From assembly GCF_000973105.1 (NCBI RefSeq), contig NC_015844.1, forward strand, positions 4,894,501 through 4,958,500: a stretch of 64,000 nucleotides of DNA. Direction: 5' to 3'. The DNA comes from Zobellia galactanivorans. GTDB lineage: Bacteria; Bacteroidota; Bacteroidia; Flavobacteriales; Flavobacteriaceae. Numbering within the stretch: position 1 is the stretch's first letter; every line of letters starts with the position of its first letter. Below the pieces are notes generated by a model, which saw only the letters and a list, made by a program, of their open reading frames with translations, was not told the origin of the DNA and did not search any database. Position numbers and translations under genes: made by a program. Positions 19,919-43,765 of the stretch are shown piece by piece.

Positions 19919-20070
19919 AAATCCCCCTTTTTGAAGGGGGATGCCCATAGGGCAGGGGAGGTATTCCCCGATTAAGGCAAGGCTCCTACTCGTGGTATCC
20001 GCACAGCGATATATGAGATACTTATTTTTGACGTTGTCAATTTAGGATAGCATTAATGATGATATCCCAT
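19919..20070 (+). repeat. Dispersed intergenic repeat, copy 1
   Basis: It begins with an inverted repeat (ATCCCCCTT / AAGGGGGAT), continues with a G-rich block ending GGGGAGGTATTCC, and has a right arm with CTTATTTTTGACGTT and TAGCATTAATGATGATATCC. It aligns over its whole length with copy 2 (20576-20726), with only scattered differences. It sits between the sorbosone-dehydrogenase-like gene and the DUF2185-like gene, ending about 70 bp before the latter. Confidence 0.75.
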
Positions 20071-20141
20071 TCGTGGCGTGCATTGGAAAAATTCAGACTA
20101 CGAAGAATGACAAATGAATTTCACTCACTTTACTAATTGCT

Positions 20142-20468
20142 ATGAGCCTATTTAACCTATTCGGAAAAGGAAAAAACGACCAAAACAAACCGGAATTTAA
20201 ATTTAACGACCCCGAAAACAAGGCCGTTTTTACCTGCAATCATGTAGTTGATGAAAAATGTCCGATACTATATGCATCGCACGATACGGATGGAGATTGG
20301 CAATTCTTATGTGGAGGGAACGACCACACGGAAGAAAACGCAAAACTCATTTCTTTAAAAAATGCTGTGGAACTCGATAACACCCTGAACGAATTGTTTG
20401 AAATGCCCATTGGAGTTGGGGCAGAGCGGAATGGAATAGGGGGAAAATGGGAGCCGTTTAGACTTTAA
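20142..20468 (+). CDS. DUF2185/Imm33-like small protein
   Basis: This 108-residue cytoplasmic protein has no signal. Its central blocks VFTCNHVVDEKCPILYASHD and DGDWQFLCGGNDH, followed by a region of the form SLKNAVELDNTLNELFEMPIG, resemble DUF2185-type proteins, a group listed among predicted immunity proteins of polymorphic toxin systems. The charged N-terminus MSLFNLFGKGK is shared in style with the proteins at 20757 and 36746. No toxin gene is adjacent. The family assignment is from memory and moderate. Confidence 0.55.
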   Translation: MSLFNLFGKGKNDQNKPEFKFNDPENKAVFTCNHVVDEKCPILYASHDTDGDWQFLCGGNDHTEENAKLISLKNAVELDNTLNELFEMPIGVGAERNGIGGKWEPFRL

Positions 20469-20575
20469 AACTAACGGTAAAGACCGAAGCACCACCCCTT
20501 CATTAAAGATGCTGCCCCCCTAGTTTCCATGCATCACCCCGACCAAAAAAAACAAACTAATACAAGGTCCGAATA

Positions 20576-20726
20576 GAGTCCCCCTTTGAAGGCGCGCGCA
20601 GGCAGGGCGGGGGAGGTATTCCTCGACTAGGGCAAGCCTCATCCTTATGTTATCCGTAAAGCGATATAAGAGATGCTTATTTTTGACGTTATCAATTTAG
20701 AATAGCATCAATAATCATATCCTTTT
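20576..20726 (+). repeat. Dispersed intergenic repeat, copy 2
   Basis: The left part is AGTCCCCCTTTGAAGG, then a G-rich block ending GGGGGAGGTATTCC, and the right arm is CTTATTTTTGACGTT with TAGCATCAATAATCATATCC. It is nearly collinear with copy 1. About 55 bp of sequence before it (GACCAAAAAAAACAAAC ... GGTCCGAATA) also matches the sequence before copy 3, so the repeated unit extends further left. The next gene starts 30 bp downstream. Confidence 0.75.
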
Positions 20727-20756
20727 ATATAACCAACTCGACCAAAACACCAAAGC

Positions 20757-21872
20757 ATGAGTTTCCTAAAAAATCTATTTTCATCCGAAGAAGAAGAATT
20801 TCAAGAAGCCGAAGTCCTGATCGAGGAAGCATCACCTTCTTGCCCGATTAAAGCATTTGTGGAACAAGACAACCGAGTCGTCTACTTTTATTTATGGGGA
20901 GATGAAAAAACAAATTTTGGGGTAAAATCTTGCTGGGTTAGAAATCTAAAAAAAGCCCCGGCCAAATTGGAAGAAAAATTAATGGACAAGGGCATTCCCC
21001 CTATGCTGCCCGAACAATTTTGTAAGTTCAAGGAAGGACAGGGGAAATTGGATCCAAATGATTTGGAAATTATTTGGACCGAAGAAGGAGATGCCGCAAG
21101 TCTTTTAGCAAATGGGGAAGTAATTGCCATCATCCCAAGCTGGGGAGGAAAAAATGGCTTTTATGGATATGCAAGGGATTGTATCGGACAAGGGGATTTT
21201 GCTTGGGAATTGACAAAATCAAATGAATTTTTGGACAGGATACAACAATCTAAGGCCTATTGGGATTCTTGGGGCAATGAATTGAACCCTTTTCAAATTC
21301 AACAACCCTTGATATTAGGCACCTACGATGAATCGTTTGGGAAGCACGACAAGTATTACGCCATAGATGGAAACGAATGGCCGCCTAAAGGCCTCTATTT
21401 GAGAGCGGGCGAGTCAAAAACGGTCTTTGCGACAGTGGGACTTTCCTTAGTCCCTATGCCCTTGGTTGAGATGTACTTTGAAGACCGGTTTGAGTCGAAT
21501 CGGATCGAGCTCGGAATTATATTGAATTCCGTTTTTTCCGATGATGAATTACAGGAAATGGCTAGGTGGATAAGTGCCCAATCTTCTATCCCTTGGGACC
21601 ATATTACGTTTTTAGGCGAAGGGCACACCATCAATTTTATGCGTTTTAATTCTTCAATATTCAATTTTGTTTGGCTCACCAATAGATTGGACATCCTCCC
21701 TAAGCCTGAACTAGAGGACTATCGTGGCTCAAAAATCAATTTCCTATGGATGGTGCCCATATCAGAAAGGGAAAGAAAAGAAATCATGGACAATGGTAGC
21801 GATTCGGTTATTGAGAAGTTTAACGAATTAGGTAAAGACATATTTTCACTTCAACGCAAGGAAATAGTATAG
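20757..21872 (+). CDS. SUFU-domain protein (suppressor of fused-like)
   Basis: The 371-residue cytoplasmic protein has an N-terminal part (1-165) that looks like a DUF of its own (FGVKSCWVRNLKKAP, ANGEVIAIIPSWGG) and a C-terminal suppressor-of-fused domain (about 190-365), with TVGLSLVPMPLVEMYFED and the IPWDHITFLGEGHTINF strand. Bacterial SUFU-domain proteins are common immunity proteins in toxin-immunity loci. Here no toxin is next to it, and repeat copies lie on both sides of the small gene group. Confidence 0.7.
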   Translation: MSFLKNLFSSEEEEFQEAEVLIEEASPSCPIKAFVEQDNRVVYFYLWGDEKTNFGVKSCWVRNLKKAPAKLEEKLMDKGIPPMLPEQFCKFKEGQGKLDPNDLEIIWTEEGDAASLLANGEVIAIIPSWGGKNGFYGYARDCIGQGDFAWELTKSNEFLDRIQQSKAYWDSWGNELNPFQIQQPLILGTYDESFGKHDKYYAIDGNEWPPKGLYLRAGESKTVFATVGLSLVPMPLVEMYFEDRFESNRIELGIILNSVFSDDELQEMARWISAQSSIPWDHITFLGEGHTINFMRFNSSIFNFVWLTNRLDILPKPELEDYRGSKINFLWMVPISERERKEIMDNGSDSVIEKFNELGKDIFSLQRKEIV

Positions 21873-21909
21873 TACTACTGGCTCTCATTTGAAAACCATA
21901 ACGCGCATA

Positions 21910-22353
21910 ATGATCAGGAAATATTCAAATAAGGATAAACCGAAAATAATCGAATTACTACGAAAGAATACTCCTGCTTTTTTTGCTCCTTCCGAAGAAG
22001 CCGATTTATCAAACTATCTTGATCGCGAAGTGGAAGATTACTTTGTTTATGAAGAGAATGCCGTCATTATTGGAGCAGGAGGGATAAATTACTTCCCTAA
22101 ATTAAGACTTGCCCGAATTTCGTGGGATATCATCAACCCAAATTTCCAAGGAAAAGGCGTGGGAAGAACGCTGATACAACACCGGCTTGATCATTTGAAG
22201 GGGATTGAAAATATGGATTCAATCGTCGTTCGAACAACACAATTGGCCCATAAGTTTTATGAAAAAATGGGATTCGAACTTGAAAAAACGGAAAAGGATT
22301 TTTGGGCAAAAGGTTTTGACCTTTACCAAATGAAGATGCCCCATAAAAAATAA
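21910..22353 (+). CDS. GNAT-family N-acetyltransferase
   Basis: ATG at 21910 (MIRKYSNKDK) is preferred over the in-frame TTG at 21889. The 147-residue protein shows the GNAT acetyl-CoA loop NFQGKGVGRTLIQH (residues about 76-89) and the C-terminal YEKMGFE strand-helix. The acceptor is unknown. It starts 37 bp after the SUFU gene and may share its transcript. Confidence 0.8.
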   Translation: MIRKYSNKDKPKIIELLRKNTPAFFAPSEEADLSNYLDREVEDYFVYEENAVIIGAGGINYFPKLRLARISWDIINPNFQGKGVGRTLIQHRLDHLKGIENMDSIVVRTTQLAHKFYEKMGFELEKTEKDFWAKGFDLYQMKMPHKK

Positions 22354-22440
22354 GGCATTCCCGCTTCGTTAGGGAAGGTTAGCCCCACACCACATAGGCA
22401 TCCTGACCAGAAAAAATCAAAGCCATACAAGATCCAAATA

Positions 22441-22560
22441 CAGTCCCCCTTTGAAGGGGGTATGTACTTCCCGGCTGACACAAGGTTACGAGAGATTTAC
22501 TACCTTAGTTGCTATAAGTAGAATAGCATCAATGACTATACCCTCCTGGTATGTGACTTG
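22441..22560 (+). repeat. Dispersed intergenic repeat, copy 3 (short form)
   Basis: CAGTCCCCCTTTGAAGGGGG (22441-22460) forms a perfect inverted repeat. It is followed by GTACTTCCCGG and a right arm TTAGTTGCTATAAG then TAGAATAGCATCAATGACTA and TGGTATGTGACTTGAAAA. The same right-arm words recur in copies 2, 4 and 8. The 60 bp before it (CATCCTGACCAG ... GATCCAAATA) matches copy 2. The CrtA-like gene starts 38 bp downstream. Confidence 0.75.
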
Positions 22561-22597
22561 AAAACAGCATAGAACTACGAATTCAAATAAAGTCAAA

Positions 22598-23299
22598 GTG
22601 AGCCTATTCTCGTATCATTTAGTAAAACTTCCCTTTTTTGATGCGATGAAAGGCATATTCTCGAATCCGATTGCCAAGAATACGAAAGGGCTGATCCACT
22701 CGGAATACATGACGGCAATGACCCTGGGCGCTCCTATCTTATCCTCGTCTCGAATCTTACTCGGGCAAGTGGCCGTTTTTATGCAATGGGAAAACGAAAG
22801 TGCCCTTGAAAACTATTTGAAAGAAGACCGTTTTGGACGTAGGCTCGCTAAAGCTTGGCACGTGCGCCTGTCCTTTATTAGGGAATGGGGAAAGTTTAGC
22901 GGGTTTGAAATACCAAAGCACAGAGCGCAACCGGAAAGTTCAAATGCGCCTGTAGTCGCAGTCACCATAGCACGAATGAAGCCATTGGCCCTTCCAAGGT
23001 TTATTCATTGGGGAAGACCTGTAGAAAAACTGGTGAGAGACCACCCGGGTACGGTACTTTCATTAGCGTCTATCAATTTTCCCAATACCGTCTCGACTTT
23101 TTCGATTTGGAAAACGGAAAAAGAAATGACCGATATGGTCCATGGTCATAGTGCGGTAGAAAGACCTCAAAGACATTCCGCCGCCATGAAAGAAAGAGAA
23201 AGAAAGAACTTTCATTATGAGTTTACTACTTTAAGGTTTAAGCCTTTGGCCGAATTCGGCGAGTGGAAAGGGAAATCAAATTTTATTCCCCCTACATAA
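22598..23299 (+). CDS. CrtA-like (spheroidene monooxygenase-type) protein
   Basis: The 233-residue protein starts at GTG 22598. Two alpha-beta barrel-like halves are visible: MTLGAPILSSSRILLGQVAV with FMQWENESALENYL, and VSTFSIWKTEKEMTDMVHGH ending in FHYEFTTLRFKPLAEFGEW. The late block matches the pattern of proteins annotated as spheroidene monooxygenase in actinobacteria and other non-phototrophs. True CrtA oxidises acyclic carotenoids with haem. Here the substrate is unknown, and no carotenoid genes are in the window. Confidence 0.6.
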   Translation: MSLFSYHLVKLPFFDAMKGIFSNPIAKNTKGLIHSEYMTAMTLGAPILSSSRILLGQVAVFMQWENESALENYLKEDRFGRRLAKAWHVRLSFIREWGKFSGFEIPKHRAQPESSNAPVVAVTIARMKPLALPRFIHWGRPVEKLVRDHPGTVLSLASINFPNTVSTFSIWKTEKEMTDMVHGHSAVERPQRHSAAMKERERKNFHYEFTTLRFKPLAEFGEWKGKSNFIPPT

Positions 23300-23313
23300 G
23301 GGTTTCGGTAGAT

Positions 23314-24183
23314 ATGGGAATAGCACATAAAAAACAAAGTCTTCAAGATCGGATCACGCAGCAATGGGTTATTCTTTTTGGAAAGAAAATCGATACGACC
23401 GAACACCAATGGCTCTTAGGACCTTTTGGCGGCACCAATGGTATTGGTTTGAAATTTATCGACTACCTGGCCAAAAAAGAAGGTTTACATATGGATCATG
23501 GGAAAAGGAACAAGGGATTGATTCAATCGATCGACCAACTCAAGCTGTCTCCCAATGAATTAAATACCTTATCTAAAGATGTGGTTGACTTTTATCAAAA
23601 CACATCTGATTACGACCTTCGGTTAAAAGTAAAATGGAATCCTTTTTTTAAGGGCTTCGGCGTTTTACTAAACATACTGTTCAGCAAAAGAATAGAGCAA
23701 CTAAACGTCCCAATAAAAAACATAAAGGACCCGTCAGGATTGACAAGTGAAATAATTCAACTAGTAGACCCCAAAACAAATGAAGTCAAAAGAACGGTCT
23801 GGCTCCGAACCTTTAAGTCTACCGATCAAATCGTGTATTCGGGGGTTTATGAAACCTGTACCATACCATCGGGACAGACAGGTATCAAAGCGATATTTCC
23901 TTTACCCAATGGAAATGCTACTGTCATTTTAACCCCTAAGGTCGGAAGAAACGGTGAACTCATACTCGATTCCGCAGGACATCGAATAGGGGATAGCGGA
24001 TTTTACTTTTTACTGGAAGACTCAAAGGGACAATTATGGACCAAGTTCATTTCCTCATTTAAAGACAAGCTTGTAGTACGAAGTGAACATCAAAGAATTA
24101 CCGCTACCCAGACCTTGACCTTGTGGAATTTGAGGGTTTTACAATTTGAATACAAAATAAAAAAAGCGGCACATGATAACTAG
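23314..24183 (+). CDS. Hypothetical protein, partner of CrtA-like gene
   Basis: The start is set at ATG 23314, 15 bp after the CrtA-like stop, rather than at the longer frame that overlaps that gene. The 289-residue protein has no signal and no recognised domain. The N-terminal third has HQWLLGPFGGTNGIGLKFIDYLAKKEGL, and the C-terminal half is beta-rich (GVYETCTIPSGQTGIKAIFPLPNGNATVILTP as separate strands). Tight spacing implies co-transcription with the CrtA-like gene. Its function is unknown. Confidence 0.65.
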   Translation: MGIAHKKQSLQDRITQQWVILFGKKIDTTEHQWLLGPFGGTNGIGLKFIDYLAKKEGLHMDHGKRNKGLIQSIDQLKLSPNELNTLSKDVVDFYQNTSDYDLRLKVKWNPFFKGFGVLLNILFSKRIEQLNVPIKNIKDPSGLTSEIIQLVDPKTNEVKRTVWLRTFKSTDQIVYSGVYETCTIPSGQTGIKAIFPLPNGNATVILTPKVGRNGELILDSAGHRIGDSGFYFLLEDSKGQLWTKFISSFKDKLVVRSEHQRITATQTLTLWNLRVLQFEYKIKKAAHDN

Positions 24184-24214
24184 GCCATGGGCACAATGAA
24201 TAAAAATAAAGCAA

Positions 24215-24817
24215 ATGCTAAATTTCGACTGTAAGAACAACCACATTTTAGAAGACGACTTTGTCAAATTAAGTCCCCTTAAGACCGAGCACGTCAACGA
24301 CTTAATTGAAATCGCCAACGAAGCCGATATCTGGAAATACTCTTTCGTAAAAGGCGACGGAATTGAAAACCTGACCCAATACATCCAATCGGCCATTAAC
24401 AACCGAAAGATAGGGAAGGAGTATCCATTTATCGTTTTTGACAAAATCAAGAATCAATTTGCCGGAAGCACCAGATATTGTGAAATAACCCCTAGTCTGA
24501 AAGCCATCCGGTTAGGCTATACTTGGTACGGAAAAGCGTTCAGGGGAACGGGTCTAAACAAACATTGCAAATATCTGTTGTTTGAATTTGCCTTTGAGAG
24601 AATGGGAGCTGAAAGAATAGGGCTAGGAGCCTATATCGAAAATAAAATAAGCATTGCGGCAATGGAAAGCGTAGGCTGTAAAAAAGAAGGCATCATGCGG
24701 GGAATTTTTCCGGCAACGAACGGAATAGGACGAACCGACTCCGTTTTATTGAGCATTCTAAAAAACGAATGGGATGAAAATGGAAAATCGCAATTAAAAA
24801 GCAAGTTGAACACATAG
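24215..24817 (+). CDS. GNAT acetyltransferase, RimJ/RimL type
   Basis: The 200-residue protein has the RimJ/RimL layout: LSPLKTEHVNDLIEIA, FAGSTRYCEI, RLGYTWYGKAFRGTGLNKH (acetyl-CoA loop) and MESVGCKKEGIMRG. Such enzymes acetylate protein N-termini or small molecules. It starts 31 bp after the unknown partner of the CrtA-like gene, so it may belong to the same transcript. Confidence 0.82.
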   Translation: MLNFDCKNNHILEDDFVKLSPLKTEHVNDLIEIANEADIWKYSFVKGDGIENLTQYIQSAINNRKIGKEYPFIVFDKIKNQFAGSTRYCEITPSLKAIRLGYTWYGKAFRGTGLNKHCKYLLFEFAFERMGAERIGLGAYIENKISIAAMESVGCKKEGIMRGIFPATNGIGRTDSVLLSILKNEWDENGKSQLKSKLNT

Positions 24818-25046
24818 GTACACCGTACCGTATATCATATTTATGGGAAGAAAATAGTGGAATCGAATGCCGAAATTTAGAATCCATAGTGCATCCGCTA
24901 AAAGAGATACCCCTTGGCCAGCTTTCTTTAGGGGATGTATTGCTTTAGCGCCTATAACTATATAGTACCGATACCCATTTTTCATTGTTGACTTTCATTG
25001 TTCAAGTTCACTTATCTTAAAATTAAGACCAACTAAAACCAAAATC

Positions 25047-25454
25047 ATGGGAACAAAACAGAACATTCAAACCATTGACACCTTGTACAAGGCTTTTGCT
25101 ACCGGCGATATGCCCATTGTTCTGGGCTTGATGCACGCAAAAATCGAATGGAAGGAAGCCGAGAGCAATCCACTTGCGGACGGAAACCCCTACATAGGTC
25201 CAGATTCGATCTTAGAAGGCGTATTTGCACGCCTTGGAGCCAAGCACGAGCACTTTGGCGTACAAGACGTAAAAGTCCATGGCATGAGCGATAACATGGT
25301 CTTAGCTACCCTAAGGTACAATGCCAAGGTAAAGGCTACCGGAAAAAGTTATAATGCCCAGGCCGCACATTTATGGACACTTAACGATGAAGGAAAGATT
25401 ACCGCCTTTCAGCAGTATGTCGATACCAAGAAATTGGCCGACGCCGAAATGTAA
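25047..25454 (+). CDS. SnoaL/NTF2-like protein
   Basis: The 135-residue protein is a single cone-shaped NTF2-like domain: TIDTLYKAFATGDMPIVLGL, IEWKEAESNPLADGNPYIGP, and AAHLWTLNDEGKITAFQQYVD. Members act as isomerases, hydrolases or ligand binders in ketosteroid-isomerase/SnoaL style. No signal peptide is present. The 230 bp upstream has a possible degenerate repeat (see findings). Confidence 0.78.
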   Translation: MGTKQNIQTIDTLYKAFATGDMPIVLGLMHAKIEWKEAESNPLADGNPYIGPDSILEGVFARLGAKHEHFGVQDVKVHGMSDNMVLATLRYNAKVKATGKSYNAQAAHLWTLNDEGKITAFQQYVDTKKLADAEM

Positions 25455-25556
25455 TTTACAGTCCCGTCCCATAATAGGCCCCAATTACAAGACCGTACTA
25501 TTTCGGGCCAAAGAACAACAACCTATAAGGGCATAATGCCCGAATACAAATTGAAG

Positions 25557-27284
25557 ATGAAGTACATACTTAGCCTCCTTTTTTTACTGATATCGTTTTT
25601 CGGTTTTTCCCAAAAGCCATACGATTACACCTTATTGACCTATTCGCAGGTAGGATACGATAGCCATATGCCCAAACATGCCATGATTCAAAATACCGAT
25701 TCTACATTTTTGAGTGCCGATGCCACTTTTATATTAAGAAGGGCCTCAGACCATAAAAAGGTGCTTAAAGGTAAGATTGGGAAATCTACCAAAAAGTGGA
25801 ACAAATTCTGGTGGAAAGTCGATTTTTCAGATTGTAAAACGGCCGGCGCCTATGTTTTGGAAATTAGGGACCATAACAAACCTATATTCCAAAGTAAAAA
25901 GGAATTACCCATTACCATAGGCAAAAAACGGCTCTGGGACGAAACTTGGTATGCAACCGCGCTATCGCACTTACATATACGCGATAGCCTGAGCTATCAA
26001 CCTGAAGGGGGATGGAAAGATTGTGGCAGTCCCTTACAAGAGGTAAGCAGCCATATCATTATGTTAAACGCCTTATGTGACCTATTGGAATTGGACAAAG
26101 AGAACCTATCCCAGGCGCACAAATCGGAAATACACGAACAATTGATAGTGGGGGCGAATTACGTTGCCCTGTGTCAAGACAAGGCGCAAGAACTGGGCTT
26201 CAAGGAAGGTGCCGTCATTCATGAAGCCCGGGAGAATTTAAAGGTCGTGACCGGAAATGTGGCCAAAACGGCCATGATATTGGCCAAAATATCGCGTTTG
26301 ATACGGGCTGAAAACCCTTCGCTTGCCAATGCATATAAAGCCCGCTCCCTAAAATCATATCAATGGATTTCAGAGTATGGCCCCGTGCTTCATTGGGACA
26401 ATACCGATAATTTCGCCATCACCCACGGCGCGCCTTACGGCATGAAAAGACCGCCCAAGGAATGGATGACCAGGGATTTGGTTATGATGATGTGGGCCTC
26501 GCTCGAACTATACAAGTGCGGAGAATTGGAGTATAAAAACAAAGCCGTTGACTATGCTTCAAAAATCATAAAAAGACAAGTACCGAAAGACCGGGCCGAA
26601 GATGGCCTTTACGGTCATTTCTACACCTACGACTCTTATGATTTTACCGAAAAAGCCGATATACACTGCGGTGCATGGAATGCCAATTATAAGGCCTATA
26701 ACCAAGGCGGACACTTTCCCCATTACTTGATTCCGTTAATAGAGATGATGGATCTATGGGGCGATCACCCGAATGCGGTGAGTTGGAAAGCCTGTGTCGA
26801 TAGTTTCGCTTTTAACTACTTTCTGCCGGCCACCCATCAAAATCCTTTTAAAATACTACCCGCCGGATACTACAAAAACGAGGGATTATTGAACTGGAGT
26901 GGATGGTACCACGGACATAATAAAATTTTCGGCTATGCCGCAGGCCTCGCCATGGAGTTTTATAACCTATATCACGACGATAGGTTTATTGAAATCGCCG
27001 TTGGTAATTTACAGTGGATATCGGGACTTCACTCAGGCTTCCATGAAAATACGGAAGACTTTTCGGCAAGTATGATCGTTGGAATAGGAAACCGTTCCAA
27101 ATCGGATTGGGATGCCATGACCGGCACCATAACCAATGGCTTTGAGGCCGATGGTCAGTTCAAACTGAGCAAACCTAAAAAAGAAACCGATCTACCTACG
27201 GTTTTCGGCGATGAAGGCGGAATTCACCACCCTGCCGGCTGGATTAGCGGACTCACTCGTTTGTATTATTACCAGAAAAAATAA
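25557..27284 (+). CDS. GH9-like secreted glycoside hydrolase with altered active site
   Basis: The start is ATG 25557 (MKYILSLLFLLISFFGFSQ signal), 21 bp inside the longest frame. The 575-residue protein has an N-terminal cellulase-type Ig-like domain (about 25-125: YSQVGYDSHMPKHAMI, GAYVLEI) and an alpha/alpha-barrel GH9-type domain. In ordinary GH9 enzymes a DAGD motif supplies two catalytic Asp. Here the matching place is GGWKDCGSP, so the second Asp is Ser. The C-terminal region has GDEGGIHHPAGW rather than the usual YNA block. It may be a divergent hydrolase with another mechanism or a non-catalytic binder. Confidence 0.65.
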   Translation: MKYILSLLFLLISFFGFSQKPYDYTLLTYSQVGYDSHMPKHAMIQNTDSTFLSADATFILRRASDHKKVLKGKIGKSTKKWNKFWWKVDFSDCKTAGAYVLEIRDHNKPIFQSKKELPITIGKKRLWDETWYATALSHLHIRDSLSYQPEGGWKDCGSPLQEVSSHIIMLNALCDLLELDKENLSQAHKSEIHEQLIVGANYVALCQDKAQELGFKEGAVIHEARENLKVVTGNVAKTAMILAKISRLIRAENPSLANAYKARSLKSYQWISEYGPVLHWDNTDNFAITHGAPYGMKRPPKEWMTRDLVMMMWASLELYKCGELEYKNKAVDYASKIIKRQVPKDRAEDGLYGHFYTYDSYDFTEKADIHCGAWNANYKAYNQGGHFPHYLIPLIEMMDLWGDHPNAVSWKACVDSFAFNYFLPATHQNPFKILPAGYYKNEGLLNWSGWYHGHNKIFGYAAGLAMEFYNLYHDDRFIEIAVGNLQWISGLHSGFHENTEDFSASMIVGIGNRSKSDWDAMTGTITNGFEADGQFKLSKPKKETDLPTVFGDEGGIHHPAGWISGLTRLYYYQKK

Positions 27285-27401
27285 GTCCTGAAATAGTTCC
27301 GTATGCGATGGCGTGGAAATCGACAGTGCCGACACACCGACCCAACCGGCACAAGCCTGCTGTTCGCTCCGCGTAAATAAAAATGCCTTGCAATAAATTT
27401 C

Positions 27402-27560
27402 CGCTGCGGAAGGCTCAGTATTAGATTTTGAAGGGCGCGCCCAGGGTAGGGGATGTCCTTTCCAGGCCAACAAACCATTCAAAGGTGAGGAATTTCTTAT
27501 ATTAGTCGCTGTGAGTAGGAGGCATTCATGGGGATATCTAATCATTATCAAATATGTGGT
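27402..27560 (+). repeat. Dispersed intergenic repeat, copy 4
   Basis: It contains GCGGAAGGCTCAGTA, then TTTTGAAGGGCGCGCCC, AGGGTAGGGGATGTCC and TTTCCAGGCCAA. The right arm is TTATATTAGTCGCTGTGAG followed by GGGGATATC and AATATGTGG. The first words correspond to the extra 26-bp segment seen in copies 5 and 7 (long form). It lies between the GH9-like gene and a small membrane-protein gene. Confidence 0.65.
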
Positions 27561-27642
27561 CCACACCGAATACCAAGCGAATACCATATCCAACACCTTA
27601 AACACCGATAAAAAGCCTACTCTAATTTCTCTTTAACCGCGT

Positions 27643-28271: not shown

Positions 28272-28292
28272 TAATTGAAATTGTTATTGTGT

Positions 28293-36697: not shown

Positions 36698-36745
36698 ATT
36701 CAAAGAACCTCGGGTTAATAAAACCTACAAACAAAAGCTTTCGCT

Positions 36746-37492
36746 ATGGGAATATTAGATAACCTCTTTGGAGGAAAGAAACAGAAAGGGAAACCTGAAA
36801 TTGATTCTTCCACATTCAAAGTAATTGAAAAAACCGATTACAACAGTTTTAAGGAAGCTGTTGAACAAAATGCTGGACTTTCCTTTGAAAAACAAATGAT
36901 TTTCGGGGATGTAATCGGTTCAAAAGCTTGGGAGCTTGATATGGGAGAGGGAAAAATCATATTCGATTCCTTAGAGTTTCCTATTCAAATAATAGGCTCA
37001 CTATCTTTTAATGACAACTCTTGGATGTGGGCCTGGGCGAATACGCAAAGTGGAATGCCTGAAAACCTGTTAATTCAATCCAACCAACTGAAAGCCATAG
37101 GGGAAGAGAAGCATATTGAAGAATTGACCGATCCTCATTTTAATGTGGAGGAAGGTTTTGAACACAAAATAGGAATGATGGTTTGTGGCTTGTTTGGCTC
37201 TAAAAGCTATTACTGTGCCAATTACGGGCAAGGAACCCTCGTTGTAACCATAGATGACGATAAAATACCCGGCATTGACAAAAACCACTTTGAAAAAATA
37301 ATGACTTGTTTCCCACAATTAATAAGTGGAGTAGAATTAAACCATAAAAATGCTTTCATGAATTATCTGATCGACCGAGACTTTCAATTGGTTATTTCAG
37401 AAGATAAGGTTGAAGGATTGAGAAATGGTAAAGTCGTTGTAGCGGAATTTGACGAATTGCACCGGCTGAAGTCCTTGAAAGGGAAAATATAA
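36746..37492 (+). CDS. DUF6882-like protein
   Basis: The 248-residue cytoplasmic protein begins MGILDNLFGGKKQKGK. Its core has FGDVIGSKAWELDMGEGKI, LEFPIQIIGSLSFNDNSWMW and AWANTQSGMPENLL, which fits the DUF6882 family as I know it. The C-terminal 60 residues (LVISEDKVEGLRNGKVVVAEFDEL in pieces) appear separate. Such proteins are found scattered in accessory regions and may be immunity-type. No partner toxin is visible. Confidence 0.6.
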   Translation: MGILDNLFGGKKQKGKPEIDSSTFKVIEKTDYNSFKEAVEQNAGLSFEKQMIFGDVIGSKAWELDMGEGKIIFDSLEFPIQIIGSLSFNDNSWMWAWANTQSGMPENLLIQSNQLKAIGEEKHIEELTDPHFNVEEGFEHKIGMMVCGLFGSKSYYCANYGQGTLVVTIDDDKIPGIDKNHFEKIMTCFPQLISGVELNHKNAFMNYLIDRDFQLVISEDKVEGLRNGKVVVAEFDELHRLKSLKGKI

Positions 37493-37567
37493 AATAATTA
37501 GGAACAACAGGTATCAGATACACCTTCCTTTGGTCTGTCCCTCGATATCATCATAGGTCTACATACA

Positions 37568-38143
37568 TTGAAAAAACATATACTGAGCATATACCCGCTG
37601 ATTTTTGCGGTCCTGTTTCTGATTTCTTGCAATGCGGAAAAGAAAGAAATACCAACTACCGAAAAAGATTGGGATCAAGTCATACACTTAAGCGATCTAT
37701 ACTCCGAAGAACAAATTGACCAATATTTTACAGAGGTCAAATCCGATTTTAAAAAGTTTGTTGAAGATGATGGAATAATTACTTACGAGTTACAACAAGA
37801 ACAAATAGCAAATAAAAGTGTCTTAGGATTATATAATAAAACCACAGCCTTTCCTCTAGATGTAGAAGAAAATCTATTTATGGGTTTTGTAATGGACCAA
37901 ACCGTAGAATTATTAGATTCTAAGGAATTAGATTACACTAAAGTCGAAAACATTACCATAAATTCAACAAATTATGTGACGTATGAAGTTTTTTCGGATA
38001 ATCGCAAATTTGGTTACTTTATATTATTTCACAAAAAGAATAAAATGTTCTCCGTAAATCTATTTGCCCTTCCTTTTATAGAACCTGATTTTGAACGGTT
38101 GAATAAAAAAATAGATGATATGGAGAAAAGTATAAACCGATAA
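37568..38143 (+). CDS. Hypothetical lipoprotein, TTG start
   Basis: The 191-residue protein starts at TTG 37568, because no ATG lies before the signal (KKHILSIYPLIFAVLFLISC, lipobox at C21). The mature part is acidic with mixed alpha-beta content and no recognised domain. It lies 75 bp after the DUF6882-like gene on the same strand and ends before a partial repeat. Confidence 0.65.
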   Translation: MKKHILSIYPLIFAVLFLISCNAEKKEIPTTEKDWDQVIHLSDLYSEEQIDQYFTEVKSDFKKFVEDDGIITYELQQEQIANKSVLGLYNKTTAFPLDVEENLFMGFVMDQTVELLDSKELDYTKVENITINSTNYVTYEVFSDNRKFGYFILFHKKNKMFSVNLFALPFIEPDFERLNKKIDDMEKSINR

Positions 38144-38227
38144 GCGCCCTTTGTTAACGCTTAGCTATTGCACGACTTACGTGAGCATCCCATGTATGGG
38201 AGCATATGTAAATGGCCTCAATAAATT

Positions 38228-38282
38228 ACCCCACTTCGGCAGGCTCAGTGCAAGGCTTTGAAGGGGCAAGCGCAGGCCGAAA
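38228..38282 (+). repeat. Dispersed intergenic repeat, copy 5 (partial, long form)
   Basis: Positions 38231-38256 are identical over 26 bp to 41566-41591 (words CACTTCGGCAGG and CTCAGTGCAAGG). The copy continues with TTTGAAGGGGC, AAGCGCAGG. The right arm seen in copies 1-4 is missing. It lies just before the glutaminase gene. Confidence 0.7.
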
Positions 38283-38381
38283 AAAAGGAAAAGAATTTCA
38301 CCATGTGCGTGGCGGAGAGCAAGAGGAGGTTTGTCACCCATCGTTAAGAGCTCATCCCTTGGCACCATTAATAACAGAAAT

Positions 38382-39296
38382 GTGGATATAAAAAAAGTAG
38401 TTCAAAATGTATACGACAAAGTAAAGGGTATTGATGATAAGGGAAATTTAGCATCGTATATCCCTGAATTAGGAAATGTAAATCCCGATTTTTTCGGGGT
38501 GCATATTTCAACCATAGACCATTTAAATTTTGGGGTAGGAAATAGTTCCGATAAATTTTCTATACAAAGTATCGTCAAGGTGCTTTCGTTAATTATGGCA
38601 TATCGTCTATTGGGCGAAGAACTATGGAATAGGGTAAAGGTGGAGCCCTCCGGAACCGCTTTTAATTCCCTTATCCAACTTGAAGTCGAAAATGGAATCC
38701 CTAGAAACCCATTTATCAACGCTGGAGCTCTTGTCATTGCAGACATACTCATAAGTAATTTAAGATATCCCAAGGAAGATTTTTTGAACTTTGTAAAAAA
38801 ACTTTCAAACAGTAAGGAGATTCGTTATTCCGAAAGAATAGCGACTTCCGAAAAAAATGTAGGCTACCGCAATGCCGCCTTATGTAATTTAATAAAGTCG
38901 TTCGGGAACATTGAAAACAATCCCTCAGAAGTTCTTGACTTCTATTTTAACCTTTGTTCACTCGAAATGAGTTGCGAAGACCTTTCGAATCTATTCTTGT
39001 TTTTAGCCAATGACGGCTTTACTTTAGGCGATAAGCAACAAATACTTACAAGAAGCCAAACCAAAAGGATAAATGCCCTAATGCAAACCTGCGGCTTCTA
39101 TGATGAATCTGGGGAATTTGCTTTCAAGGTAGGACTTCCGGGCAAAAGCGGTGTTGGTGGAGGAATTGTAGCGGTGCACCCAAAACAATATGCCATAGCC
39201 GTTTGGAGTCCCAAATTAAACGAAAAGGGAAATTCATATAAAGGAGTGAGATTCCTTGAAGAGTTTACAACAGAAACCGAATTATCAATATTTTAA
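38382..39296 (+). CDS. glsA: Glutaminase (GlsA type)
   Basis: The open frame begins at TTG 38331, but the first 17 codons run into repeat-derived sequence. GTG 38382 gives a 304-residue protein close to the 308-310 of E. coli YbaS/YneH. The beta-lactamase-like catalytic S63-x-x-K66 lies in FSIQSIVKVLSL. RNPFINAGAL, ERIATSEKNVGYRNAAL and GLPGKSGVGGGIVAVHP are family blocks. It deaminates glutamine to glutamate and may support acid resistance or nitrogen supply. Confidence 0.88.
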   Translation: MDIKKVVQNVYDKVKGIDDKGNLASYIPELGNVNPDFFGVHISTIDHLNFGVGNSSDKFSIQSIVKVLSLIMAYRLLGEELWNRVKVEPSGTAFNSLIQLEVENGIPRNPFINAGALVIADILISNLRYPKEDFLNFVKKLSNSKEIRYSERIATSEKNVGYRNAALCNLIKSFGNIENNPSEVLDFYFNLCSLEMSCEDLSNLFLFLANDGFTLGDKQQILTRSQTKRINALMQTCGFYDESGEFAFKVGLPGKSGVGGGIVAVHPKQYAIAVWSPKLNEKGNSYKGVRFLEEFTTETELSIF

Positions 39297-39489
39297 GAGA
39301 CCGAAGCCATACCAAGAGGTAAAACCAAGGGTAGGTAAGCAACCTTGATTTCCTATAATAAAACGGCATATACCCCTTTCGATACGTGTACAAGTAAGGC
39401 CTCCTCAAACATTTATGGGACCGGAAAAAGGAAAAAATTACAAGCGTTGATTTTCAACCCTCTCTAGCTCGAGCAGTATGCTTGTGCTA

Positions 39490-39545
39490 TCAATTCCTAC
39501 CCGCAGGGCTGGGGATGTTCTCCCGGAACCAAGCCATCAATGGTC
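39490..39545 (+). repeat. Dispersed intergenic repeat, copy 6 (fragment)
   Basis: CCCGCAGGGCTGGGGATGTT, then CTCCCGGAACCAAGCCATC, matches the middle part of copy 4 (AGGGTAGGGGATGTCC ... CCAGGCCAACAAACCATTC). The flanking left palindrome and right arm are not clear. It sits in the 360-bp gap before the TetR gene. Confidence 0.5.
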
Positions 39546-39631
39546 CTATCCGATTATTGGCCAATGGAGACAAAAAACGCGTCGGCAAAGAATGAAGAAG
39601 CGAATCAAACCCCATAAAAATTTGCTTATCC

Positions 39632-39649
39632 ATATACCGTAGAGTATAT
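39632..39649. promoter_or_regulatory. Candidate TetR operator 1
   Basis: ATATACCGTAGAGTATAT, ending 9 bp before the TetR ATG, is an imperfect palindrome with ATATAC/GTATAT arms. Its complement-strand twin occurs at 40265-40282 before fabF (16 of 18 bases agree), so the same regulator probably binds both. Confidence 0.65.
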
Positions 39650-39656
39650 TAGCAAT

Positions 39657-40247
39657 ATGATACGATCGGAAAAAACCAGGCAATTAATCATTGAGAAAAC
39701 CGCTTCAATATTCAATAAAAAGGGATATACAGGAACGTATTTGTCCGATTTAACCAAGGCTACCGGGTTAACAAAGGGCAGTATTTACGGTAATTTTAAA
39801 GATAAAAACGAGGTTGCACTAGAGGCTTTTCGGTACAATTATAAATTTCAGACGAGACAAATACTAGATAAAATTGAAAAAGAAAACAAGGCGATAGATA
39901 AATTAATCGCTTTCTTGAACCATTACAAAACATCCTTTAAACCCATTTTTAAAAACGGTGGCTGTGCCATATTGAATACGGCTGTAGATTCAGATGATGG
40001 AAATGATCTATTGAATAAGGAAGTCGTAAAAACCATTCACAATTGGCACCACAAGGTCACTTCAATTTTAGAAGACGGGGTCAATAGTAAGGAACTTAAA
40101 GAAATAGACGTCAACCAATTTTCCTACCGAATGATTTCTATGATCGAGGGTAGCATCTTACTGGCCAAAACACTGAACAAACCAGAAATTTTATTAAACA
40201 ATATAGCCTATCTAGAAACAGAAATTCTTCAATTAAAACAAGAGTAA
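39657..40247 (+). CDS. TetR-family repressor
   Basis: The 196-residue protein has an N-terminal TetR HTH (TRQLIIEKTASIFNKKGY, then LSDLTKATGLTKGSIYGNF, residues 5-50) and a C-terminal ligand domain with GGCAILNTAVDSDDG near 102-116, a pattern of the TetR_C group found next to reductases and lipid genes. Matching palindromes lie just before this gene and before the downstream FabF gene, 33 bp away, so it likely represses both. Confidence 0.85.
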   Translation: MIRSEKTRQLIIEKTASIFNKKGYTGTYLSDLTKATGLTKGSIYGNFKDKNEVALEAFRYNYKFQTRQILDKIEKENKAIDKLIAFLNHYKTSFKPIFKNGGCAILNTAVDSDDGNDLLNKEVVKTIHNWHHKVTSILEDGVNSKELKEIDVNQFSYRMISMIEGSILLAKTLNKPEILLNNIAYLETEILQLKQE

Positions 40248-40264
40248 AAAAAATTTAACCCACT

Positions 40265-40282
40265 ATATACCTTACGGTATAT
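40265..40282. promoter_or_regulatory. Candidate TetR operator 2
   Basis: ATATACCTTACGGTATAT has 7-bp arms (ATATACC/GGTATAT) and is the inverted twin of operator 1. It overlaps the first in-frame ATG of the FabF frame (40281), which argues that translation really begins at ATG 40299. Confidence 0.65.
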
Positions 40283-40298
40283 GAAAAAAAAGACAATT

Positions 40299-41546
40299 AT
40301 GAAAAGAGTAGTAGTAACAGGATTGGGAGCAATTACGCCGATTGGCAAAAACGTAAAGGAGTATTGGGATAATTTATTGAAAGGGGTTTCAGGGGCGAAC
40401 AAGATAACGCGTTTTGATGCGAACAAATTCAAAACCCAATTTGCTTGTGAAATAAAGAATTATGATGCTTTGGACTATTTTGACCGCAAGGAAGCAAGAA
40501 AACTCGATAGGTTTAGTCAATACGGACTAATCGCGTCAGAAGAGGCTATCAAAGATGCTGAACTGGAATTTTCAAAATTGGACACGAATAGAATTGGTGT
40601 GATATTCTCAAGTGGAATCGGTGGCTTTGAAACTTTTGAAAAGGAAATAATCGATTATACCAATAACCATTTCAACCCTCGTTTTAATCCTTTTTTTATA
40701 ACCAAAATAATTTCCAATGGTTTATCGGGAACCATTTCAATCAATAACGGATTAAGAGGTGTAAACTATTGTCCGGTAACGGCTTGTGCTTCGTCAACAC
40801 AGAGTGTAATCCAAGCTTTTAACTATATCCGTTTAGGAAAGGCGGATATCATTATCGCAGGTGGCTCGGAAGCTCCAATTACAGAAGCTTCAATTGGGGG
40901 GTTCAATGCAATGAAGGCCATGTCTACGAACAATGAAGACTATAGTTCCGCCTCAAAACCATTTGATAAAAAGAGAGATGGCTTTGTTGTTGGTGAAGGA
41001 GCTGGAGCCTTAATCATAGAGAGCTTGGATTCCGCGATAAGGAGAAATGCCAAAATTTACGCCGAAGTTGTCGGAGGCGGGGAAAGTTCAGATGCTTATC
41101 ATATTACCGGCACCCACCCTGAAGGACTTGGAGGGTATTTAGCCATGCAAAACGGAATAAGCGAAGCGAATATTACGCCCAAAGAAATTGATTATATAAA
41201 TGCGCACGCCACATCTACCGGCTTAGGAGACTTGTCTGAAATTAAAGCGATCGAAAAGCTATTTGATTCGAATCTAGATAAAATCCAAATTAGTGCGACT
41301 AAATCCATGACAGGACATTTATTAGGGGGAACAGGTGCCATAGAAGCGATATCAACTTGTTTATCGGTAAAAACAGCTATGATTCCCCCAACGATAAACA
41401 CCACCGAAGTAGATGAAAAAATATCAAAAAAACTGAATTTATCCCTCGGTAAAAAGACCTCTAAAGATATTAATTACGCCCTGAGCAACAGTTTTGGATT
41501 TGGAGGACATTGTGCCGCCCTTATACTAAAAAAATATGTTGGCTAA
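40299..41546 (+). CDS. Beta-ketoacyl-ACP synthase II-like (FabF paralogue)
   Basis: The start is set at ATG 40299 because the ATG at 40281 lies inside the operator-like palindrome. The 415-residue protein keeps the Cys-His-His triad: C163 in TACASSTQS, H303 in NAHATSTGLGD and H340 in SMTGHLLGGTGA. It would condense acyl-ACP with malonyl-ACP. It is not accompanied by fabD, fabG or acpP, so it is an extra copy under its own TetR switch, perhaps adjusting membrane lipids under stress. Confidence 0.88.
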   Translation: MKRVVVTGLGAITPIGKNVKEYWDNLLKGVSGANKITRFDANKFKTQFACEIKNYDALDYFDRKEARKLDRFSQYGLIASEEAIKDAELEFSKLDTNRIGVIFSSGIGGFETFEKEIIDYTNNHFNPRFNPFFITKIISNGLSGTISINNGLRGVNYCPVTACASSTQSVIQAFNYIRLGKADIIIAGGSEAPITEASIGGFNAMKAMSTNNEDYSSASKPFDKKRDGFVVGEGAGALIIESLDSAIRRNAKIYAEVVGGGESSDAYHITGTHPEGLGGYLAMQNGISEANITPKEIDYINAHATSTGLGDLSEIKAIEKLFDSNLDKIQISATKSMTGHLLGGTGAIEAISTCLSVKTAMIPPTINTTEVDEKISKKLNLSLGKKTSKDINYALSNSFGFGGHCAALILKKYVG

Positions 41547-41559
41547 CCATACATAAAAA

Positions 41560-41745
41560 TGCCCCCCACTTCGGCAGGCTCAGTGCAAGGCACTAAAGGG
41601 CGCCCCTAGGGTGGGGGATGCTTCCTAGGCCAATACACCGAACTCCAATATAGGTAATTTCCCATCTTAGTCCTTGTAGGCAGTGTCGCATCGACACCCA
41701 TCTATTGGTTGGTCACACGGTATATAAAGTCATAGTTCCCTAACG
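41560..41745 (+). repeat. Dispersed intergenic repeat, copy 7 (long form)
   Basis: It starts GCCCCCCACTTCGGCAGG, includes the 26-bp segment shared with copy 5 (41566-41591), then TAAAGGGCGCCCC, TAGGGTGGGGGATGCTTCC and TAGGCCAATACACC. The right arm ATCTTAGTCCTTGTAGGCAG and GACACCCATC corresponds to TTAGTCGCTATAAG in other copies. TGGTCACACGGTATATAAAG at the end is similar to part of copy 9. Confidence 0.65.
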
Positions 41746-41760
41746 GATGCCTGGCCTTAT

Positions 41761-41886
41761 ATGTCCCTCAATAACAAAGCAAACCAACCTATATCCGCTT
41801 TGTCTTATTTAGTCCTTATTGGTGCAATAATCCTTTCTACAAATTCGTTCTTTGGGATTATAAGCAATAACCTGACGAAACCATAA
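41761..41886 (+). CDS. Possible 41-residue membrane microprotein
   Basis: An ATG frame of 41 codons lies between repeat copies 7 and 8. It encodes MSLNNKANQPISALSYL then VLIGAIILSTNSFFGII and a short polar tail, giving one transmembrane segment. It may be a real small protein, or the first helix of a lost transporter gene. No typical ribosome-binding signal was identified. Confidence 0.3.
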   Translation: MSLNNKANQPISALSYLVLIGAIILSTNSFFGIISNNLTKP

Positions 41887-41944
41887 AAAGAATACCTAAA
41901 ATATTAAAAACGTGTTACCCCAATCCCTTATAAAAACCTGGTAA

Positions 41945-42095
41945 ACCCCATACTGTCCCTTGAAAGGACTTGTCCGAAGAGTAGGGGATATCTTCCCTAG
42001 ATCCACGCATCATCTAAACATCAGGGATTTATTATGTTAATCGCTATAAGGGGAAACGATATCAACCCCAATGGTATGTAACAGTTGGCCATCAT
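41945..42095 (+). repeat. Dispersed intergenic repeat, copy 8
   Basis: AACCCCATACTGTCCCTTGA, then GAGTAGGGGATATCTTCCC, and a right arm TTATTATGTTAATCGCTATA, GATATCAACCCC, TGGTATGTAAC. The right arm matches copy 3 best (TTAGTTGCTATAAG ... TGGTATGTGAC). The next gene starts 13 bp downstream. Confidence 0.6.
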
Positions 42096-42107
42096 TAAAA
42101 AAACGCA

Positions 42108-42749
42108 ATGAATATAGATAACAGATCATCTCAATTTTGGAATTGGTTCAATAGCAACAAAGCGAAATACGAGTATACTTTGGCCAATTTGAATTCACTA
42201 CATCAAGGCGAAATTGATGAAGCAATGAATGTTTTTGAAGAAAAATTGCACGTATACAATGAAAACATTTGGTTTAGAATGGGGGGAGAAAAACCATATG
42301 AACTATTAATAACGGCTGAAGGGAATGTAGAACAATTTGATGCTGTAATCGACCTGGTAAATAGCGCCCATACGATAGAAAACTGGAAAATCATACCCTT
42401 TATACAAGCTCGGGATATTTCTAAGTTTAACTACAGGCTTGACGATTTTGAACTTACCGAAAAAGATGTCTTTTTTACCTATACAGAAAATCTAAGTGGT
42501 GAAAATGGCTATTATTTGGAAACCATGTTCTACGTAACCGATGACAAATTTATCAATGATGATTCTTTTAAATCTTCTATCATTAGAATTGCAGAGACGG
42601 CACTTGGCGAATACGATTTTGCCAAAATCATTGGTTTTATAGATGTTGAAAAAGTCTCCAATACATACTCCGAACACAAAAGCGAAATGCTACCCATATA
42701 TAAGTTAAAAGACATTTCAGAAAGTATTAAAAATAAACTACGGGAATAA
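42108..42749 (+). CDS. Hypothetical cytoplasmic protein
   Basis: The 213-residue acidic protein has no signal or membrane segment. It opens with SSQFWNWFNSNKAKYEYTLA, and the middle contains GGEKPYELLITAEGN and AHTIENWKIIPFIQARD. The overall look, an alpha-beta protein with aromatic residues, is like small immunity-type or DUF proteins. No family is recognised. It is flanked by repeat copies on both sides. Confidence 0.65.
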   Translation: MNIDNRSSQFWNWFNSNKAKYEYTLANLNSLHQGEIDEAMNVFEEKLHVYNENIWFRMGGEKPYELLITAEGNVEQFDAVIDLVNSAHTIENWKIIPFIQARDISKFNYRLDDFELTEKDVFFTYTENLSGENGYYLETMFYVTDDKFINDDSFKSSIIRIAETALGEYDFAKIIGFIDVEKVSNTYSEHKSEMLPIYKLKDISESIKNKLRE

Positions 42750-42796
42750 CAAGCATAGCTAGCAAAGGTAAATCAAGTCTTCAGCTGGAGCGAGCG

Positions 42797-42846
42797 TCCC
42801 GCACCCATTTCGAAGGAGGGGCAAGGTGGAAGATACGCCCGCCATG
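42797..42846 (+). repeat. Possible degenerate repeat fragment
   Basis: CCCGCACCCATTTCGAAGG then AGGGGCAAGGTGGAAGATACG resembles the left part of the dispersed repeat (CCCC...TTTGAAGGGGC) at low similarity. It lies in the gap between two hypothetical genes, as other copies do. Confidence 0.35.
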
Positions 42847-42985
42847 GTACGCACCCCACTTATCACATCAATCGGATTCGAGGGTTAGTTTTACGTAAGT
42901 TCCTTTTTTCCAGTTGAAAAACCTAGGGTATAGCGATGGTGATTTCCGAAAAAAAATATAATTTACGATAGAAACGCCCTTTGTT

Positions 42986-43597
42986 ATGATTAGAAGAACA
43001 TCAGGAAAGTTTGCGCAAAACTACGAAGCAAAAAAGTACGCCCGACCAAAGTCCGCCACCGACAAACCCGATAAGGCAGCCGACCCTTCGGCCGAGTTTA
43101 GGCTTCTGCAGGCTTCCTACCTGAACGAGCTTGTAGAAGCTGCCGAATACAAGGTAGTTACAAAAAAGAAGAAGAAATTGTTTTGGACGGTTAAAGAAGA
43201 AGTTGTTGTCGATAATTATAAAGACTTCTTAAAATCGAAAACAAGCTTGGTCGGCGCATTGAACGATCGAGCCTTTTTAATGTTCGATGACCTTCAAAAT
43301 TTTCTAAAGCAAAAAGGAATACACATAACGAATAGTTTGACCGAAGAGGCCCGGCAAAAATTTAGGACACGGGACGAACATCCTATTTTGATCAATTACC
43401 AAACCGCCAAGAAGCTCGCAGAGCAATTAAAACACCTGAATATAACGGACGAAGACCTGCGCAAGGCCGATACCGACAACTTGCATCAATTAAATGAAAG
43501 CCTTTTCGAAAAGCAGCGTTCGGAAGTAAAGATGTTTGAACAGGCAGTCAACGAAATCGAGAAAGACGCCATCTTATTGGTTAGGATTAGGGATTAA
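42986..43597 (+). CDS. Hypothetical charged helical protein
   Basis: The 203-residue, Lys/Glu-rich protein has mostly helical content: a basic N-terminus (RRTSGKFAQNYEAKKYARPK), a KKKKKLF stretch near 60, and a long amphipathic C-terminal helix (SLFEKQRSEVKMFEQAVNE). No family is recognised and there is no signal peptide. It is followed by a repeat copy. Confidence 0.6.
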   Translation: MIRRTSGKFAQNYEAKKYARPKSATDKPDKAADPSAEFRLLQASYLNELVEAAEYKVVTKKKKKLFWTVKEEVVVDNYKDFLKSKTSLVGALNDRAFLMFDDLQNFLKQKGIHITNSLTEEARQKFRTRDEHPILINYQTAKKLAEQLKHLNITDEDLRKADTDNLHQLNESLFEKQRSEVKMFEQAVNEIEKDAILLVRIRD

Positions 43598-43644
43598 TGT
43601 GCCCCTCTTCCCAACTAACACGAATGTACCATTTAAAAAACCGT

Positions 43645-43765
43645 CCAAAACACCCCCCTCCTGGAGGAGCCCGTAAGGCGGGGGATGCTACCCTTAACGT
43701 TTGTACTTCCTAAAATGCTTCTATTATGGAGTCAGAGACACGGTATTCCTTCCCATCTATATAAT
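43645..43765 (+). repeat. Dispersed intergenic repeat, copy 9
   Basis: CACCCCCCTCCTGGAGGAGC forms a left inverted core, then AGGCGGGGGATGCTACCC. The right arm includes CTTCTATTATGGAGTCAGAG and CACGGTATTCC, diverged from other copies. It is the last copy seen in the window on the right side, before the alpha/beta-hydrolase lipoprotein gene. Confidence 0.5.

Follow-up and report, generated by a model that had tools for sequence, protein, structure and literature searches.

Intergenic repeats of Zobellia galactanivorans as candidate relic lead-ins of an integron-like cassette system in Bacteroidota

Chromosomal integrons, such as the Vibrio superintegron, comprise an IntI recombinase, an attI site and arrays of attC sites, and recombination at attC is described in PMC2727003 as proceeding on the bottom strand, with complementary R' and R'' boxes. 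Bacteroidota are named among the phyla with integrons in two reviews (PMC8618304, PMC9668308), the second of which also reports reverse-oriented IntI in Spirochaetota. In section 3.1 of the IntegronFinder 2.0 paper, one complete Bacteroidetes integron is named, that of Salinibacter ruber M1, among 22,301 chromosomes; In0 elements in Bacteroidetes are attributed to an earlier version, and the section gives no count of clusters of attC sites lacking integrases (CALIN) for the phylum (PMC9024848). Here we analysed 64,000 nucleotides (bases 4,894,501-4,958,500; the window, whose positions are used below) of the single-contig, 5,521,712-bp genome of Zobellia galactanivorans, which carries a set of repeats between its genes. 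These repeats appear, with a probability that we put at about 0.6, to be eroded composite elements whose right modules are old cassette lead-ins of an integron-like system. On a wider scale it is quite probable that Bacteroidota carry a widespread and so far unrecognised integron class, with an insert-less recombinase upstream of, and usually co-oriented with, its array, and with strand choice coded by wobble pairs in attC-like sites of about 121 bp instead of by extrahelical bases, the window repeats being its fossil lead-ins. No paper on these attC-like sites was found in the open-access PubMed Central literature, which holds no preprints and few subscription journals.

A preliminary description of the window had listed nine plus-strand copies of one repeat in gaps between genes, and profile searches bore out a dispersed, intergenic and co-oriented family. 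Rather than a single family, the repeats were found to be composites of two modules, a REP-like (repetitive extragenic palindromic) left module and a right module that also occurs separately; copies are lettered a to i along the window. Matches were present at or near eight of the nine listed coordinates (only marginally at 43645), and the ninth, 38228, matched neither module, having only an TTCGGCAGGCTCAGTGC hairpin in common with 27399 and 41564. The left module combines a CCCCC..GGGGG hairpin with GGGGATGT (rough consensus CCCCCTT(Y)GAAGGGGG..GCCC..AGGGCGGGGGATGT..TTCCC), and the right module is marked by TAnnTTAG and ATAGCATCAATGACTATATCC (rough consensus TTTACTAYCTTAGTTGCTATAAGTAGGATAGCATCAATGACTATATCCC). 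Module boundaries are ragged, and the left module is linked to a right module in 6 of 8 copies. The exact form CCCCCTT..AAGGGGG, previously ascribed to every copy, was seen in the window only at 19919 and 22441. Leave-one-out scores were compared with a background made up of the remaining window, 15 dinucleotide shuffles and 400 kb of control sequence; every background match was exceeded by six of eight left modules (a, b, d, f, g, h) and by five of six right modules (a, b, c, d, h), the exceptions being left c, left i and right g. Neither module gave a match below E 0.9 in twenty 20-kb control stretches (400 kb) of the Z. galactanivorans genome. In agreement with the preliminary description, neither was matched in the window outside 19.9-43.8 kb, and the window gave no Rfam match at gathering scores, so that no known RNA family was recognised.

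The repeats are not confined to one accessory region, as had been proposed, since the right core, searched as a pattern with up to 3 mismatches, gave 15 genome matches (14 places) compared to 3 in a reversed control, with 11 places outside the window; the right module also occurs in cassette arrays. When this pattern was combined with an earlier search, six same-strand copies of the right module were found at 3.74-3.81 Mb. A right-module profile built from 7 copies at 3.73-3.81 Mb ranked seven window sites (c, g, a, b, the f remnant, h and d) above the best other match of 8.1 bits, the lowest two, h (9.4 bits) and d (9.1 bits), only barely (E 0.7-0.8); as the 7 outside copies were themselves found via the window copies, these scores, including the high score of c, are not fully independent. 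The right half of the repeats resembles P (lead-in) modules elsewhere in the genome above background. Among 9 Zobellia genomes, 2 contained a longer form of the right module, class B, which is about 300 nt in all and has the same 3' end; Z. galactanivorans had 10 matches to it and Z. uliginosa had 6.

A gene lying between two elements of a class B array can begin and end with inverted repeats that are specific to that cassette, 14 nt long and of the form GTT-N7-A-W3 ... W3'-C-N7'-AAC, with a conserved T core (AACANNGGTAACCGTTGCACAA) downstream of the cassette gene. The T core was found in 93 of 397 Flavobacteriaceae genomes sampled (70 of 237 genera), with the reversed control found in nine genomes, once each. 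At 33 of 79 T sites with enough upstream sequence, the upstream R' agreed with R'' at 12 or more of 14 positions, compared to 3.0% when R'' was swapped. A pair finder that makes no use of the T core (GTT-x7-A-w3 ... w3'-C-x7'-AAC, with x7 exactly complementary) gave 7 matches in Z. galactanivorans array loci, 5 in Z. uliginosa, 29 in T loci of other genera and 7 in integrase loci. These 48 matches in array and integrase loci, a total that includes at least one cassette twice (G260) and two pairings with the T core itself, compare with 1 in the 400 kb control and 0 in the window; the array loci had been chosen because of their matches, and the twenty control stretches guard against this selection only in the Z. 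galactanivorans genome. The perfect complement, G/C at the A/C position, was absent from all four array groups and the control and occurred twice in the window, and seven other base combinations gave 0-2 per group. The G/T combination recovered the same pairs as A/C, read from the other strand. As A/C pairs were enriched and G/C pairs absent from the array groups, position 11 of the R box holds a fixed top-strand mismatch, which becomes a wobble pair on the bottom strand. On sequence grounds, cassettes with these specific ends can be assigned to an integron-like system in Bacteroidota.

The lead-in position was indicated by two features of these arrays. Of the 33 cassettes whose R' and R'' agree at 12 or more of 14 positions, 4 (L044, Zu_C15, Zu_C13 and Zg_3.73) have a class A/B right module that ends where R' starts. 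A class C module, in the same position as classes A and B, closely resembles the sequence just downstream of the 3.692 Mb integrase of Z. galactanivorans, and this likeness suggested that P modules occupy the attI position. Side observations on the array regions concern the T sites in L141-L160, where the T core is followed by genome-specific repeats that by eye resemble intrinsic terminators and the T family has no obvious L' partner, and a cassette-rich region of Z. galactanivorans (about 3,772,088-3,782,910), where a 1,858-nt block is duplicated at 99% identity and several repeat families of 260-330 nt occur in single orientation.

Between cassettes, 34 distinct sites were extracted, of which 23 measure 115-126 nt from AAC to GTT and are organised as R''-AAC, 3 nt, L'' (16 nt), a variable middle, L' (16 nt), 6 nt and GTT-R', with the exact 3/6 spacer register in 16 of the 23. 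Across L''/L' positions there were 296 Watson-Crick pairs, 53 A.C and 1 G.T on the top strand and 18 others, giving 12.9 Watson-Crick pairs per site compared to 7.2 in shuffled sites and 9.2 with swapped L', the L-box register being chosen per site by best complement with the same freedom allowed in both controls. The L stems are mostly continuous, judged without a dedicated test of bulges, and their asymmetry lies in the 53:1 ratio of A.C to G.T on the top strand; the proposed asymmetry includes one fixed position in each kind of box, R and L, where a top-strand A.C becomes G.T on the bottom strand. Covariation, examined in 21 of the 23 sites (one outlier and one near-duplicate left out), was strong. 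Double changes were observed in 60 cells (shuffled 17.1, standard deviation 3.4) and the covariation score was 0.398 (shuffled 0.099), neither value being reached in 500 shuffles, and sliding the alignment by one column destroyed the signal; two of the five covariation measures were less extreme, being reached by 5 and 46 of 500 shuffles. Standard pairs numbered 395 of 399 on the bottom strand and 342 of 399 on the top strand, and columns 18/111 were mismatched on the top strand in 21 of 21 sites. This excess of bottom-strand pairing fits the use of a folded bottom strand, as reported for integrons in PMC2727003. Covarying stems, which the preliminary description had suggested looking for, were demonstrated in attC-like sites elsewhere, not in the window copies themselves.

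Of 296 Bacteroidota genomes sampled, 71, from 48 of 139 genera, were matched by a covariance model of the sites, and 33 had at least 3 sites; the E-values of the model are rough, single-match genomes may include chance matches, and at most 11 sites were scored per genome. Among the same-family genomes listed, 17 of 30 matched, the 13 without a match all belonging to one genus. At E≤0.01 the model found 22 sites in 25 array or targeted loci, compared to none in 20 control loci and none in the window. Three cassettes in one array (L195) are units of 96-99.8% identity, with identity starting and stopping at CGTTA, and an 849-nt cassette is 91% identical in two genera, its 60-nt flanks being 42% identical upstream and 53% downstream. 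One cassette, about 437 nt long and apparently non-coding by eye, is present three times within L195 (3965-7071 of the reverse complement).

An IntI-like tyrosine recombinase was found in both species, at 3.6917 Mb in Z. galactanivorans and on contig C13 in Z. uliginosa (272 amino acids; 46% identical). Among named models, NF040815 and TIGR02249 matched it best. Against NF040815 (XerA/integron integrase; cut-off 220) the Z. uliginosa protein scored 225 bits and that of Z. galactanivorans 214 bits. The TIGR02249 scores of 196.7 and 206.9 bits do not reach the IntI family cut-off of 265, and canonical IntI was rejected as a candidate when no match over the cut-off was found in 9 Zobellia genomes. 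Where the integron integrase profile spans about 60 positions, the recombinase has 17-19 residues, leaving profile positions 179-239 unaligned, a stretch that we take to be the IntI-specific insert (I2); its best relatives by sequence in the PDB were XerA and an XerC-like protein, followed by IntI4. Of 22 loci taken from around integrase homologues, 9 have a paired R' that starts 27-130 nt downstream of the recombinase stop and on its strand; among the rest, several contigs end within 1 kb. In these nine the order is recombinase, attI-like site and cassette, and in many cases there is a tandem series of units, each a gene with an attC-like site of about 121 bp. L195 has ten consecutive cassettes (one with 6/7 matches) with 120-187 nt between them, and Z. 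galactanivorans has three cassettes after its recombinase. An attI-like pattern of the ATATAAC..GTT type was present within 140 nt of the integrase stop in 14 of 22 loci, a count in which two first matches are probably not the true site, compared to 5.8% of random windows. In Z. uliginosa, array and recombinase appear to diverge; there (C13:60001-75000, L159, 3047-6373) the recombinase gene was observed to be divergent from PRTase-CE, small-protein and reverse transcriptase genes.

The system shares with chromosomal integrons tandem cassettes in the same orientation, a unit formed by a gene and its downstream site, attC-like sites with R''-L''...L'-R' boxes and AAC/GTT ends, a recombinase gene in cis, and a bottom strand that folds better. 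It differs in the shortened region and the sub-threshold TIGR02249 score of its recombinase, in R pairing that spans 14 nt with a fixed A.C position, in spacers of 3 and 6 nt in 16 of 23 sites, and in nearly continuous L stems whose wobble asymmetry contrasts with the extrahelical bases described in PMC2727003. Integrase and cassettes are co-oriented also in Treponema integrons (PMC3607928), and the Salinibacter ruber M1 integron comes from the same phylum. The sites described here probably escape the IntegronFinder models.

For the cassette system we propose that the recombinase would use the folded bottom strand of the attC-like site, exchanging at the GTT of the R' box, with strand choice made through systematic A.C mismatches on the top strand that become G.T wobble pairs on the bottom. 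The right modules in the window would be old promoter or attI-like lead-ins that have lost functional cassette ends, and today may act mainly as promoter-leaders before accessory genes and also as sites of homologous recombination where genes come and go. Reading them as lead-ins is the weakest step of this chain and is offered tentatively. The left module would be a separate REP-like hairpin.

All copies in the window lie on the plus strand. Left module a (19917-19985; CCCCCTTTTTGAAGGGGG hairpin, AGGGCAGGGGAGGT..TTCCCC) scored 28.0 bits in leave-one-out (best background 7.0) and right module a (20000-20091; TATTTTTG .. GATAGCATTAATGATGATATCC) 30.6 bits (background 7.0), with 18.0 bits from the outside-window profile. 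Copy b reached 14.9 bits on the left (20576-20640; background 8.8) and 16.6 on the right (20656-20746; background 7.6). Left module c (22441-22492), a weak match consisting of the hairpin only, was not recovered in leave-one-out (21.8 bits when itself in the seed); right module c (22478-22569; 20.0 bits, background 10.1) is the window copy nearest to those elsewhere in the genome and scored 44.7 bits, not independently, with the outside-window profile. Left d (27420-27475) and right d (27474-27565) reached 16.5 and 17.7 bits over a background of 8.6, with only 9.1 bits for right d from the outside-window profile. Left f (39493-39540; 13.5 bits, background 8.0) is followed by a right-module remnant (39535-39564; 10.4 bits). 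Left g (41588-41640) scored 17.2 bits (background 8.4), and right g (41645-41717), at 25.2 bits (E 8e-6) with the outside-window profile, failed leave-one-out (7.8 bits, background 9.1). Copy h gave 11.8 bits on the left (41955-42010; background 8.9) and a weak 11.1 on the right (42010-42091; background 7.7), and left i (43650-43705) is marginal, its 8.7 bits falling below a background of 9.5. A third repeat, the TTCGGCAGGCTCAGTGC-type hairpin at 27399, 38229 and 41564, stands beside modules d and g, where it is the TTCGGCAGGCTCAGTG-type hairpin of family D2 (27399-27435 and 41564-41600), and alone at e (38229-38265), a hairpin that is a member of neither module. Elsewhere in the genome, weak left-module matches were found near 1.65, 3.90 and 4.61 Mb (E 0.018-0.24), the stretches near 1.65 and 3.90 Mb having been picked for their CCCCCTT..AAGGGGG motif, and the strict full-length left pattern had no match in the genome.

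Comparison of the window with Z. uliginosa gave 11 aligned blocks of 77-94% identity, and 5 of 7 synteny breaks within 19.9-43.8 kb fall at repeats, namely a/b, d, e-f and g, with the fifth immediately ahead of h. Z. uliginosa lacks a 505-bp unit between a and b (20068-20572), retaining a single mosaic a/b repeat, and also lacks a unit of hairpin e, a glutaminase gene and left module f (38144-39556). It has an inserted two-element class B array close to the 3' end of right module d and, between the left and right modules of g, an 18-kb block (C12, about 757,600-775,800), with 20 open reading frames (ORFs) of more than 100 amino acids in the ORF list; no recombinase was seen by eye among the ORF beginnings listed for this block. 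Sites c and i are conserved in Z. uliginosa. The gene of the 505-bp unit (20142-20468) is weakly Imm33-like, below the Pfam cut-off, and the interval 20142-21872 holds this gene and a clear SUFU-domain gene; Imm33 and SUFU types are known as immunity proteins of polymorphic toxins.

Several observations weigh against a cassette origin of the window repeats. No repeat lies at two of the seven regional breaks, near 33.0 and 36.0 kb, or at three breaks farther out, and a crossover within the repeat accounts for the a/b difference, one diagnostic base being reversed. The window lacks attC-like sites (0 model matches at E≤1), A/C-rule pairings of R' with R'' and, even with 3 mismatches allowed, the T core, and therefore its genes are not intact cassettes; an integron array in the window itself was ruled out on the same three counts. 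In a test of R'/R'' complementarity, no right module of the window beat all 20 shuffles. Their status as relics would follow from one shared module. Of the 22 integrase loci, 7 have neither a paired R' within 130 nt nor an attI-like pattern within 140 nt (three of these look similar by eye), and integrase homologues above 180 bits were present in 10 of 10 T-negative genomes and in only 15 of 20 T-positive ones, which ruled out an integrase specific to T-positive genomes. Beside the integrases examined there was no significant class A/B match (best E 0.06, not at attI), and for this reason the term attI-like, applied to the right modules, rests mainly on position; the attI-like sites downstream of two integrases, L199 and L207, gave weak class A matches (E 0.15 and 0.44).

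The alternative that survives best holds that a long-lived intergenic repeat has passively become a hot spot of homologous recombination, with no specific element driving the turnover, and we consider it possible though not favoured. The mosaic a/b fusion of Z. uliginosa, with its crossover inside the repeat, is what such passive exchange would produce, whereas the insert at d, being a class B array with genes between its elements, is not predicted by it. It is rather unlikely that the right module is only a conserved promoter-leader (a TAnnTTAG/TAnnTTTG box and a small hairpin) duplicated before accessory genes, with no integron origin and with its presence before cassettes a matter of coincidence or convenience. 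Of 31 available module rows, 16 were checked, and 12 of these have TAnnTT[TA]G, which we take to be the Bacteroidetes -7 box, in one of two neighbouring positions; many copies sit 5' of an ORF on the same strand, and the lack of attC or R' in the window would agree with such a role; however, the module stops at the cassette-specific R' in the four cassettes named above, and class C, in the same position, is close to the sequence directly downstream of the 3.692 Mb integrase. Least probable is an origin of the window repeats as REP-like elements or miniature inverted-repeat transposable elements moved by a Y1 (REP-associated tyrosine, RAYT) transposase with the right module hitch-hiking, for although the left module is, like REP elements, a short intergenic palindrome with weak matches elsewhere, and 3 Y1_Tnp matches in the genome exceed the cut-off (one of them interrupted by stops), the two intact Y1_Tnp genes are flanked by a different palindrome (GGCACTCGTT..AACGAGCGCTAGCGGGG), and the left copies, lacking a cognate RAYT flank and linked to right modules, are too diverged and too few for an active REP. 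A RAYT/REP origin of the left module was rejected on this mismatch of palindromes. The two RAYT-like genes lie at about 3,887,900-3,890,800 (L048/L049), adjoined by near-identical blocks of about 670 nt.

Returning to the cassette system of the Bacteroidota, four of eight array genes scanned with Pfam were defence-like (OLD-type ATPase, Mrr, reverse transcriptase and PRTase-CE), which suggests a reservoir of phage defence. If the 71 of 296 genomes, 33 of them with three or more sites, do carry attC-like sites, a major route of gene capture in the phylum has been largely overlooked. The wobble asymmetry would offer a simple, testable alternative to extrahelical bases for the selection of a single strand, and in the window of Z. 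galactanivorans a repeat family that had lacked an explanation would become a trace of cassette turnover.

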